DNA of 64,000 bases from Arenicellales bacterium (GTDB lineage: Bacteria > Pseudomonadota > Gammaproteobacteria > Arenicellales > JAJDZL01): positions 738,149-802,148 of the forward strand of contig OX638343.1 in assembly GCA_951813075.1 (NCBI GenBank), in the 5' to 3' direction. Each line of letters opens with the position of its first letter. Within the stretch, counting starts at the first letter, position 1. This document shows positions 46,761-51,235 of this stretch, one piece after another. The translations under genes were made by a program, and so were the position numbers. The notes below the pieces were generated by a model that was not told the DNA's origin, did not search any database, and saw only the letters and a program-made list of their open reading frames with translations.

Positions 46761-46835
<75 letters not shown>

Positions 46836-47786
46836 GCCAAATGACGTTATTGACAAGAGCAGGCCAAAGCAAGTAAAGAAAATTAACCTGATCCGCCAAG
46901 GAATCGCGAAAGAAGTTCGCATTGCAACTCGACAAAACGAATCTCCCGTGTTAGCGGCTGTTCGGTGCAACAAGAAAACAAATGTGAAAACCACTATCTG
47001 CTGCACTACCAAGGGCAGAGTTAGAAAAACAACTCTACCTGCTAATCTGTCTCGTATTTTAGCAGAAGATTATATCGGTGCTTACAGAAGAAGGACGTGT
47101 GTTAATGCACGGTTCCGACCCGCAACCGTCACTCATCTTTTTTTACTCGCCCCACCACATTCGCAGCTAACCCACCGGTGAGCTGGAGTACCGCCTGACG
47201 AAAATTGCTGACGGGCGACTCAGGATGTTTCTTACGCGTCGATCAGCGAGGGTATCCAGGGATTTTATAGTTTACGATTTATAGCAGGGACCATCCCCCC
47301 TAGCGCCAAAATCCCCCGTAAGGCTTCAAGCTCATATTCGCTGCATAAGGCGGTGGGTGCTGAAACAGAATCGGAAAGAACCCTACAATTATCACCACCC
47401 GAAGCGGGATAGCATCACCTTGCAGGGGCGTTGCAAACGTGACTGACACGCCGATCATTCGGGAGCAGAAATGGATACTGATTGTCGCCGAGTGTGGTTT
47501 GATGCAGGAGATCAGGTTGTCGGGATATTTAGCCGTCGCGCTTGAAAGCGATCATCTCAACGAACCGAGGATCATCGTCGACAGGTGATTCAGATATCGG
47601 AAGCACTAATATCTCACCAGGGATACCTATTTCTCCTTGCCATTTGAGGTGCTGTACGCGGCAGGTCTGAGCGCTCTGCTCCGAACCCACGAAGAAACAG
47701 GCTTCAAAACCCTCAAATTTGCGTTTTCGGGTCGTTCACTCGTTTTCCTGGTTCTCAGTATGCAGTGTGATGTGCTACGCAAGCAA
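46836..47786. other. Gene-poor, probably eroded stretch
   Basis: 950 bases. Short frames exist on both strands, such as one of 117 codons at 46828-47181, but they have no domain, start site or coding bias, and the first begins inside the tRNA. No CRISPR array, terminator or origin-like iterons seen. Confidence 0.45.
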
Positions 47787-48026
47787 CTACTGCAGTTCGT
47801 CCAACCTGTTCTCAAGACCGTCTAACCGGTGAACGATATGGCTCTCTAATTTGTCTAACCGGTGAACGATTTTACTCTCTAATCCGTCGATTTTACTGTT
47901 GATAAACAATACACCACTCATGAAAGCTGCTGTCAGCAAAATTATCCAGTAAATTGTTGATTTCACGAACGAACGAATCATCTCGTTTCTCGCTTCCAAA
48001 ACAATCAAACGTGTAGATGTGTCCAT
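47787..48026 (-). CDS. Small membrane protein with 11-residue repeats
   Basis: 79 residues. One membrane segment lies at about residues 25-46 (TIYWIILLTAAFMSGVLFIN). The C-terminus is a coiled coil made of the unit LESKIVHRLDK, LESHIVHRLDG, LENRLDEL. The layout is the mirror of phage XhlA-type hemolysin-activation proteins (coiled coil plus membrane anchor), but no phage genes surround it. Upstream of ATG 48026 there is no strong ribosome site, only AGAGAAAA. It may be a real stand-alone gene or a remnant. Confidence 0.5.
   Translation of the reverse strand: MDTSTRLIVLEARNEMIRSFVKSTIYWIILLTAAFMSGVLFINSKIDGLESKIVHRLDKLESHIVHRLDGLENRLDELQ
47820..47885. repeat. 33-base tandem repeat, two copies
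   Basis: The block beginning GTCTAACCGGTGAACGAT occurs at 47820 and again at 47853, a period of 33 bases. A few bases differ between copies after the first 18. It encodes the 11-residue coiled-coil unit of the small membrane protein, so each copy adds one unit in frame. Confidence 0.85.
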
Positions 48027-48676
48027 TTTCTCTCGTTTTTGTTGGACTCAGCTGGAGAAATCTCTCCCTCTAAGGGATAGAATTTGATCTGGCATTCCGT
48101 AAGCACCGTTCCTTTGGAGTGTCATGGCCGGTGGCGCGAAATTTACGAAACCTCCGGAATGTCACCACCGAATTATAGTCCCTACATATTGTTTGTCAGG
48201 CGGTCAATCGTGATTATACGACATCTCTTTTTTTTTGTAGATTGGCGCGACCGTAGGGACATTCAAGTCAACGGGTAATCATTTCAGAAGCAGTTCCTGC
48301 ACCCGCAACTGGCGCTTTCACAGTCGCGACGCACAACGACGCGGCGGTCAAAATGTGACCGCGCTTGAAGTCAAACAAAAGGTGTGATCAGGATCGGTCG
48401 AACACGATGGCTTCGAATCGGAATTGCGGTTGTGGAACTGCGGATTGAGGGGATAAACAATACCGAAGAAATTCAGTCACGACATTGGGCGGCAATGCCC
48501 AAGTTTCTGGCTGATTACTCCCATTCTTTCAGTCTGGGTGAATCCGAGTTGACAAATCTGTTTCAGCACAGGCCCAAACATTGCAATTAGCAATTCGCTG
48601 GAATATCTACTATAAAGGATGCATGAAATCGCACGATAGCCGTGTGAGCGAATCCCACGGCAATTAGGAGGAAATT
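48027..48676. other. No supported gene
   Basis: 650 bases. A 68-codon frame at 48384-48590 on the plus strand has no ribosome site or recognisable feature and I do not call it. The last bases contain TAGGAGGAAA, the ribosome site of the interrupted ORF that follows. Confidence 0.4.
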
Positions 48677-48928
48677 ATGGACACTCCAAAATTGACATCC
48701 TTGCAAAGGTTACCCTACCTAATTCTCTGAGGTGCAGCAACATTAGCCTTAGCGCCATTGGCATCTGTACTTGTCGATTTGAATTTCGATATGCATTCGA
48801 ACCCGACGGAATATAAATTCGCCACCTTTTGTGGGCTCGTAGGGTCGGTTGTGTTTGGTTATATTGGCGCGCATTTTTATTTCATAGTTTCAAAGCTGCA
48901 ACAGAAAATTCAACGTCGACACAGGTGA
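48677..48928 (+). pseudogene. Small two-segment membrane protein interrupted by TGA
   Basis: ATG 48677 has an excellent ribosome site (TAGGAGG, six bases ahead). The frame reads MDTPKLTSLQRLPYLIL, then TGA at 48728-48730, and continues in the same frame as GAATLALAPLASVLVDLNFD and FATFCGLVGSVVFGYIGAHF, YFIVSKLQQKIQRRHR before a TGA at 48926. Both hydrophobic stretches are good membrane segments, so the frame was coding. A TGG (Trp) to TGA change would explain it. Unknown family; total would be 83 residues. Confidence 0.55.
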
Positions 48929-49291
48929 AAATAAGTATTTAAGAACTCTTCTGGGTGCTTAAAATGATTCTCGCCAGACAAATTCGACCGCAAGAACGAA
49001 GCGATTGATCTAAATATGGATATTCTGAAAAATTCGCTGTTGAAGCATGTTCTGCTACATCCTGATAGACAGGAGACAGTATCAATCCAGCGGCCCAATA
49101 CTTAATTCCAACCACGAACCGGATTATCGCAACCGAAATGTGTCCATGAATCGGTAAATGCTTGCTGTGTGCAGTTTACAAAGAACATTGCGGTAAACAT
49201 GGAAAAACCGTTTTGCGCTTTCGCAACGGTGTAATTATTGCTAATGCAATTCGACACACTTCGGAGTTTGCGGGAGTTCTGATTACGAGCG

Positions 49292-50223
49292 TTAAGGACA
49301 ATCTTCTTCACAGAGACTAAGCCAGATGTCGTCGGCCCACGCAGGGTTGTCAATGAAAGGATTGCGGTTTCCCTGCAGTTGCTCGACTCTTTTGTTGCGG
49401 CGTATTTCGAACTCCGTCGGCGGATACCGTCTATTCCATTCAAGCAACTTGCATAGATGACCAATCCACGGTTTTTTTTCTTACTATCATACTTGACATT
49501 CTCGGCTTTCAGCGAAAGGTCGGGCATTCTCTTGGATGAAGAATCATAGCGGACGTCCATGTAGAACAGCATACGTGCAACTTGACCTTTGGCGCGGATT
49601 GGAGGATCGAATGATTCTTTGTTGCTGTCTAGTCGGGCGCTAAGTGTTCGATTAGGGCAGTGTTCAGACTTGTCGTACACCAATTCGATCCCGCCAGAGT
49701 TGTAACCATAGTTGCCACGCTTGTTATTGATTTCACTATCGGCTGGGCGAATATGGTGGAGATCCGTGTAGCCAGCATATCTATCACCCTTGAAGTCACC
49801 ACGGGAGGTCGGCCAAACGTGCTCGCGTTGCCAGAAATCCTGACAACCCCATGGACCTCCCTTGTTGTGTGCCTGCGCTAGATCGCGGGTTTCATCGAGA
49901 TAGAGAAGACTGACCTTACCGCAATGGCGAAATTCATCGGAGCAAGCGGAGTCAGTGTAAGCCAACGCCTCCCAGACATCCCTATCTTCGCCATCAAACC
50001 AATTCTTGTTTTTGGGGTTTGTATACGGCAATTGCTTGTGACCATCAATGATTTCGTGGAGGGCATCTTTCAACGCAGCACCGGACTTGTTTACCGCTTT
50101 GGCGTAGTAGTCGCTTGAGGGTTCCGCCCACAACTGGTTGAGAACACCGCTTACGACAAACACAATTACAGCCACGACGGACATGATCAAGAATGGCCAT
50201 TTTGAATTCGAGTTCGTTGCCAT
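49292..50223 (-). pseudogene. Endonuclease I (EndA/Dns family), frameshifted at A8
   Basis: Secreted or periplasmic DNase of the His-Me finger type. A membrane or signal segment at residues 8-32 (WPFLIMSVVAVIVFVVSGVL) leads to the catalytic region CQDFWQREHVWPTSRG and TDLHHIRPADSEINNKRGN near residues 128-170. At a run of eight A on the minus strand (49479-49472) the sense passes to the -1 frame, which continues WIGHLCKLLEWNRRYPPTEF, EIRRNKRVEQLQGNRNPF and IDNPAWADDIWL to TAA at 49292. The zero frame instead runs on to 49102 as nonsense. Restored length 310 residues. The shift site reads A AAA AAC in the zero frame. It is a mutation, slippage, or a base-calling error. Confidence 0.8.
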
Positions 50224-51235
50224 GTTGCACTCTTGTGTTAAATTAGAGACCCTGATTTGACGCCTGACGAAGGTTTGCCTGTTTGAAAATTACGGCAAAC
50301 ATCACGGTCAAACGCAATAATATCCAAATAGATAGAGAATTGCGAAACAAGAATGAACGGCCTAAATGTATAGAGAAAAGAGGTTACCGTCCTCCACTTT
50401 TCGAAAAATTTGAACCTCAGCGCCGATATTCGGTTATGAAATCGGCACGAAAATTTTCAAGTTCCTCGCTAATTACACGCATTCATTCCGCTCGCGTAAA
50501 ACCTAGTCTGAGCAGTTGCGACATGCGGTTCTGCGCACCACCGTGTCTCAGTCTATGCACTCCATTGGACTAATCAAGCATAGCATTTATTGGTTTTTAC
50601 TAAATCTGAAGATAAATAGACGCCGCCGGTGAAGTCATAGTGCTGACGGCATTTAATGCTCCTGTCCACGATGGTTCTCGATTTGATGAGACAAGCATTT
50701 TCTATTGCGTGTGCAAGGTGGCGAGGCAACCTGATTTCCCGAATTGATCCAACCTTACCAATGACGGTGTATCACTACCGAGCTCCGCAAATCTCTTGTT
50801 TTACCACTTTCGGTTACTGCTCGCTGGCTGTTCGGCCATGCGCCGGATCATTAGCAATTCATGTGCAAACATCCCTGCCGCATACGCGATACGAGTTGCC
50901 AGCCCAGTGCGAGCTGAATGTTTTCTAATATCAGCACCTTATGTGCTCGCGCCGCTATGTAATGATTCTAAATGGCGGGGACGCGCCGATGCGCCGTTCA
51001 GAGCAAACATGATGTTTGCCGGTGTGAACAGATACTGCTATTGATTGGTGAAAAGAATTTCACACAAACCCCACTCCTCATTCACCAAATTTTACTTGCA
51101 GAAAGATAGGTATTCGGATCTGATCGGTGCGACTATTGCTCTAATTCTTTCTAAAAAATTTTTTACTTGCACAATTTTTCAAAGTAGTCCAAAATTTATT
51201 TGTTTGATTCAGAATCATAAAAGGTAAGGTCCGTT
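50224..51235. other. About 1 kb without a supported gene
   Basis: Short frames (up to 96 codons) on the plus strand show no domain or ribosome site. A minus-strand stretch near 50495-50575 (HRLRHGGAQNRMSQLLRLGF) faintly recalls a recombinase C-terminus but is too short and broken to call. The last 100 bases are AT-rich and probably hold the promoter of the dioxygenase gene. Confidence 0.4.

Follow-up and report, generated by a model that had tools for sequence, protein, structure and literature searches.

An endonuclease I gene divided between two reading frames at a run of eight A, among relics of integrase and ParA-like genes

In the window, the 64,000-nucleotide stretch of DNA analysed here, a gene of the endonuclease I family (PF04231) changes reading frame at a run of eight A, and the conserved parts on the two sides of the run are both intact. 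The reading we prefer, to which we give about an even chance, is a recent indel by replication slippage in a cargo nuclease that was once under selection and is dispensable, perhaps bypassed in a leaky way. For now, the case amounts to a single uncertain base count from one genome.

The gene lies on the minus strand. Its zero frame is an ATG open reading frame at 50223-49102 that encodes 373 amino acids, and codons 1-248 (49480..50223) hold the endonuclease core: residues 48-234 match positions 2-179 of the 235 in PF04231 (E 1.4e-19, 71.2 bits), a homologue in another genome (G199) supports the same assignment, and this part aligns with the earlier portion of 1oup and 1ouo, solved chains of Endonuclease I/Nuclease. 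The N-terminal segment appears hydrophobic by eye. The conserved C-terminus is in the -1 frame, at 49292..49474 of the same strand, where 60 codons lead to a TAA; this open reading frame matches positions 200-234 of 235 in PF04231 (E 8.5e-12, 45.8 bits), is likewise found in the G199 homologue, and aligns with the C-terminal end of 1oup and 1ouo. Both halves exceed the curated cut-off of the family, 25 bits. The run itself is at 49472..49479 (T8 on the plus strand) and is one of the two longest homopolymers in the window. On the gene strand it is followed by CC, and the zero frame here reads A AAA AAC, a heptamer of the -1 frameshifting form X XXY YYZ that ends at 49471. A sequence-only reading had proposed that the zero and -1 frames join exactly at this run, that the run has an A AAA AAC context and that the -1 frame restores the C-terminus; direct inspection bears out the join, in place, frame and length, as well as the heptamer, and the PF04231 match bears out the C-terminus. 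The homologous loci described below have core and C-terminus in one continuous frame, and here the two are split at 49472-49479, with the lesion, as in a pseudogene, putting the conserved C-terminal stretch out of frame. There is no stop in 308 codons of the endonuclease, and the frame change is its sole lesion.

Past the heptamer the zero frame remains open for a further 122 codons before its stop (49102..49470, minus strand), beyond the TAA of the -1 frame. Pfam gives no match to this tail at any E value up to 1, for which reason we rejected it as a second domain. When the codon order of the C-part was shuffled, the wrong frame was open for at least 58 codons in 638 of 5,000 cases, and the following 62 codons were open in 116 of 5,000 shuffles of that stretch. 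An open tail of this length, examined only after being seen, is uncommon but a minor matter; we count it against a recent indel, as rather long for a random break. An alternative genetic code was rejected, TGA being the commonest stop of long open reading frames (131 of 236), and a scan for promoters and terminators gave three and three sites, against 2.5 and 1.7 in shuffles.

The split is peculiar to this gene among the homologues we examined. Counting loci that have a match to the N-part at E 1e-3 or better, and leaving out those that match the C-part only, there are 51, two genes being counted double (L003/L072 and L004/L071); 50 of them have the C-part nearby and the 51st has no C-part match at E 0.01. 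The halves are in a single frame with no stop between them in all 50 loci that have both, so that the split arrangement is conserved in none of them, and A runs near their junctions reach six at most. In the translations, the junction appears by eye to be a loop variable in length and sequence. The closest homologue found, an intact gene in G199, a genome of the same class, is read in one frame and has no homopolymer at the junction; its identity to the gene here is 54% in the N-part (226 residues) and 61% in the C-part (56 residues).

The endonuclease family is absent from all five other genomes of the genus that were searched, one of which is 87% complete. In G001 and G003, the BirA and PhyH genes adjoin as they do here, without the endonuclease; the G001 contig ends soon past PhyH, and G003 has an 802-residue open reading frame there. 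The BirA and WYL homologues in L059 (G001) and L105 (G004) have one in-frame TGA each. Among mobile elements, compared by identity and not by run length, we found one phage record (37.7% identity to the endonuclease), 13 plasmid records, all below 60% identity, and two stretches of viral contigs that fit a pattern, neither of them a relative. One plasmid of Bacillus subtilis (NZ_CP035227.1:10917-11433) carries, in two pieces and without annotation, a match resembling endonuclease I, possibly another broken copy. Among the titles that our literature search listed, none concerns the endonuclease I family.

The C-terminal part shows no mark of the time that it would have spent out of frame in an old break. 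Its bit score relative to that of the N-part is larger here than for the G199 gene in 13 of 29 outgroup homologues, and the mean bits of the two parts against outgroups are 52.8 and 90.9 here and 56.7 and 95.1 for the G199 gene. With C/N conservation like that of the intact gene, the C-part is, by this measure of similarity, not visibly decayed, and neither this ratio nor the stop count gives any sign of relaxed selection.

The surroundings are in a different state. The endonuclease is located between a tRNA-Thr gene (46761-46835) and a PhyH gene (51236), among integrase and ParA-like relics. An integrase relic flanks it at 50420..50923 on the minus strand (six stops in 168 residues); a second is at 47430..47645 on the plus strand (two stops in 72 residues) and a third, of 27 residues, at 48486..48566 on the minus strand. 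All three were found by tblastn with an integrase-like open reading frame of the same genome (L081:7808-8797), which matches Phage_int_SAM_1 above its cut-off and reaches no better than E 0.095 with Phage_integrase, the model of the catalytic domain. A ParA-like ATPase gene has left a relic in two frames at 46999..47230 on the plus strand; this relic was found by tblastn with L118:7255-8154, an open reading frame beside a tRNA-Lys gene that matches AAA_31 (E 1.4e-24) and CbiA (E 2.2e-15). Together the relics have nine stops in 342 aligned residues, a count that omits a membrane-protein relic at 47748-48026 (two stops in 93 residues) because the open reading frame of the window ends at the first stop, whereas the 308 codons of the endonuclease have none. 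A gene so free of other lesions among decayed neighbours argues against old decay, which we rejected on the undecayed C-part and the absence of stops; the break is probably young, unless the DNA does not have it. The suggestion of the sequence-only reading that this is something other than plain decay stands as regards the undecayed C-terminus and the lack of any further lesion; the phase variation or productive slippage offered in its place found no support.

Several other features of this region may be recorded. In its first part, 46836-51235 is similar to the ParA-like open reading frame and tRNA-Lys that this genome has near 58 kb. The tRNA-Thr(TGT) gene at 46761-46835 has a D-loop one base shorter and an altered T-loop compared with G001 and G004; a search of its own genome with it otherwise returned only tRNA-Lys and tRNA-Thr(GGT), and it may be the sole such gene. 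At 48677-48928, a small open reading frame that looks by eye like a membrane protein follows AGGAGG and has an in-frame TGA at 48728-48730, being otherwise open to 48928. About 160 bases at 48296-48457 have five more copies in the genome, partly shorter and 74-82% identical.

A recent indel is our preferred reading because the gene has one frame change, in a long homopolymer, and no stop; because its homologous loci are all in one frame and its genus-mates lack the gene; because the relics around it have decayed and its C/N conservation has remained like that of G199; and because indels in an 8A repeat are documented in M.HaeIII (PMC3812077, extract). The gene would probably have arrived by horizontal transfer, either as cargo of an integrative element, now decayed, or next to it; the nuclease would have been retained under selection after the death of the element and would now be at the first step of loss. 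We infer this order of events and also the reality of the run in the cell, where a single recent change in its length, by slipped-strand mispairing in replication, would have put the C-terminal part out of frame. Should the assembled sequence be correct, the cell would chiefly make the protein of 373 amino acids, with the core kept and the conserved C-terminal stretch missing, and this protein would probably be inactive. Slippage of RNA polymerase or ribosome at A8 could plausibly, on physical grounds, still yield a little full-length enzyme, as an accidental leak and not as a programmed event.

A close rival, somewhat less probable in our judgement but a serious possibility, is that the assembly has miscounted the run, which would really be of another length in an intact and ordinary gene. 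The sequence-only reading had named this alternative, and it stays live: the break is exactly within a homopolymer, the classical place for miscounts, and the halves are as conserved as in the intact homologue, neither with a stop. Moreover, the authors of GeneTack, in the part of their paper available to us, expect that singleton frame transitions with BLAST support stem from sequencing errors and not from genuine indels (PMC3711429), an expectation that favours a miscount here and counts against a genuine recent indel. Against a miscount, no further homopolymer frame break turned up among the 93 A/T runs of at least eight that were located, and these other runs appear to be in frame. The 8-A word is not rare in this genome, with 131 occurrences on both strands of 3.14 Mb, overlaps counted; the 93 runs, which comprise 89 distinct runs among the matches listed and four others, cover 105 of these 131 matches. 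Fifty-six of the 93 sit in open frames of at least 150 amino acids with at least five codons on either side, and in 55 of the 56 a codon model scores the same frame better downstream, the exception (L083:2393-2400) being the boundary of Fe-ADH and ChaC genes. The power of this test is limited, as the endonuclease (EndA) run is itself among the 55, scored as frame-keeping by the smallest positive margin (+0.98; the next is +5.8); the model misses a break that homology calls, and a break in another foreign gene could escape likewise. An earlier scan with the codon model and 150-base flanks, which called EndA 'not both coding', had too little power. Twelve further runs, read frame by frame with EndA as control, show no convincing break, and in the remaining 25 no pair of different frames is open for 40 codons on both sides, which was the sole criterion applied to them. 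When 210 open reading frames of genus-mates were used as queries, they aligned to some 41 kb of a 464-kb sample and pointed to one candidate break, which is where FKBP and 2-hydroxyacid dehydrogenase genes meet. Neither the survey nor these alignments support gross homopolymer errors, and systematic miscounting is unlikely; a single miscount in some 100 runs may nevertheless have occurred.

That the frame break is put to use, RNA polymerase or ribosome slipping at A8 or A AAA AAC to make a useful full-length nuclease, perhaps under regulation, seems to us unlikely, although the undecayed C-part and several published cases speak for it. The run has just the length below which slippage by E. coli RNA polymerase is undetectable (PMC6260861, as excerpted), but the same extract reports that this polymerase gave little or almost no signal on the A runs examined. 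Use of slippage is suspected for IS elements with 8A in two bacteria (PMC1088944, in the text available), and 8A indels of M.HaeIII, which are frequent, are partly bypassed to give functional enzyme (PMC3812077, extract); in the transcriptomes of E. coli and Buchnera, as described in the accessible part of PMC5574713, insertions rise with run length, with no restored frame. The same study of 108 genomes that noted the IS elements finds, in the portion seen, that A/T runs of about nine and longer are selected against in a large share of them (PMC1088944). Within 309 sampled genes of the present genome, sense-strand A8 occurs six times, EndA included, against 8.2 expected from 200 synonymous-codon shuffles, and sense-strand A runs of at least nine occur not at all against 4.1 expected, a zero that two of the 200 shuffles reach; the two are among ten run classes examined. 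Runs of nine or more A may thus be avoided in these genes, and A8 is not clearly avoided, which casts doubt on strong slippage at A8 in this organism.

The ribosomal signals are similarly mixed. The heptamer, called a classical -1 site by the sequence-only reading, is indeed in the zero frame and serves one archaeal virus gene as its shift site, and the base that follows it is a C, with which shifting in E. coli is favoured relative to U; in E. coli, however, A_AAA_AAC is much less shift-prone than A_AAA_AAG (all from the available part of PMC5009743). A stem-loop after the run, for which that reading proposed to check, is also predicted, at 49420..49469 on the minus strand (-16.6 kcal/mol), but its spacer is a single nucleotide, where the extract of PMC5009743 gives 5-9 in most studies and quotes a range of 3-14, and its energy is unexceptional: z is -2.97 for 51 nt (two of 200 shuffles as good) and -0.87 and +0.37 with wider cuts, among 884 folds along the gene the 51-nt one is 15th, the fold of a 40-nt cut is average, and 80 of 1,500 random 51-nt pieces of the window fold equally well. 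Direct reading of the 20 bases before the run finds neither GGAG nor AGGA. Given this heptamer, a spacer of 1 nt and an arrangement shared by 0 of 50 homologous loci, productive slippage and phase variation both have little in their favour. Phase variation, in which the length of the run would change often enough for an exported nuclease to be turned on and off in the population, is the least probable of the readings we weighed. A homopolymer in a gene whose hydrophobic N-terminus suggests export would suit it, since most phase-variable genes make environment-exposed products (PMC3711429, in part); against it, this is one run of eight in one genome, with no conserved run in homologues and no gene in the five genus-mates, and a run of at least eight is nothing special where 56 of 93 are in open frames of at least 150 amino acids. 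Barely more probable is a leaky device kept by selection, with slippage yielding little full-length DNase and mostly the 373-residue form with its unrelated tail of 122 residues; if true, an exported nuclease would be kept at a low or noisy level after the island around its gene had decayed.

Set beside known systems, the gene is recognisable as an Endonuclease I of PF04231 (1oup, 1ouo, 2ivk, 2g7e, 2vnd, 2pu3) by its core and its conserved C-terminal stretch, and differs from the family in having the two in different frames. With the singletons of GeneTack it shares occurrence in one genome, homology on both sides and a single lesion, and we found no difference from the part of that work available (PMC3711429). 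It resembles dnaX-type frameshifting and transcriptional slippage, as far as the extracts of PMC5009743 and PMC1088944 describe them, in its A-rich shift site, but has A_AAA_AAC and not the A_AAA_AAG of E. coli, eight A and not the nine of T. thermophilus, a very short spacer and an arrangement that is not conserved. The case serves mainly as a caution that finding a heptamer together with a homopolymer where a frame breaks is not enough to point to recoding. A further parallel is with the 8A indels of M.HaeIII, which, in the accessible text of PMC3812077, agree with it in run length, kind of lesion and position between conserved parts, with the difference that function and full-length protein were demonstrated there in the laboratory. 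If the run is real and leaky, the endonuclease would be a natural counterpart of those laboratory indels, a gene between function and loss.
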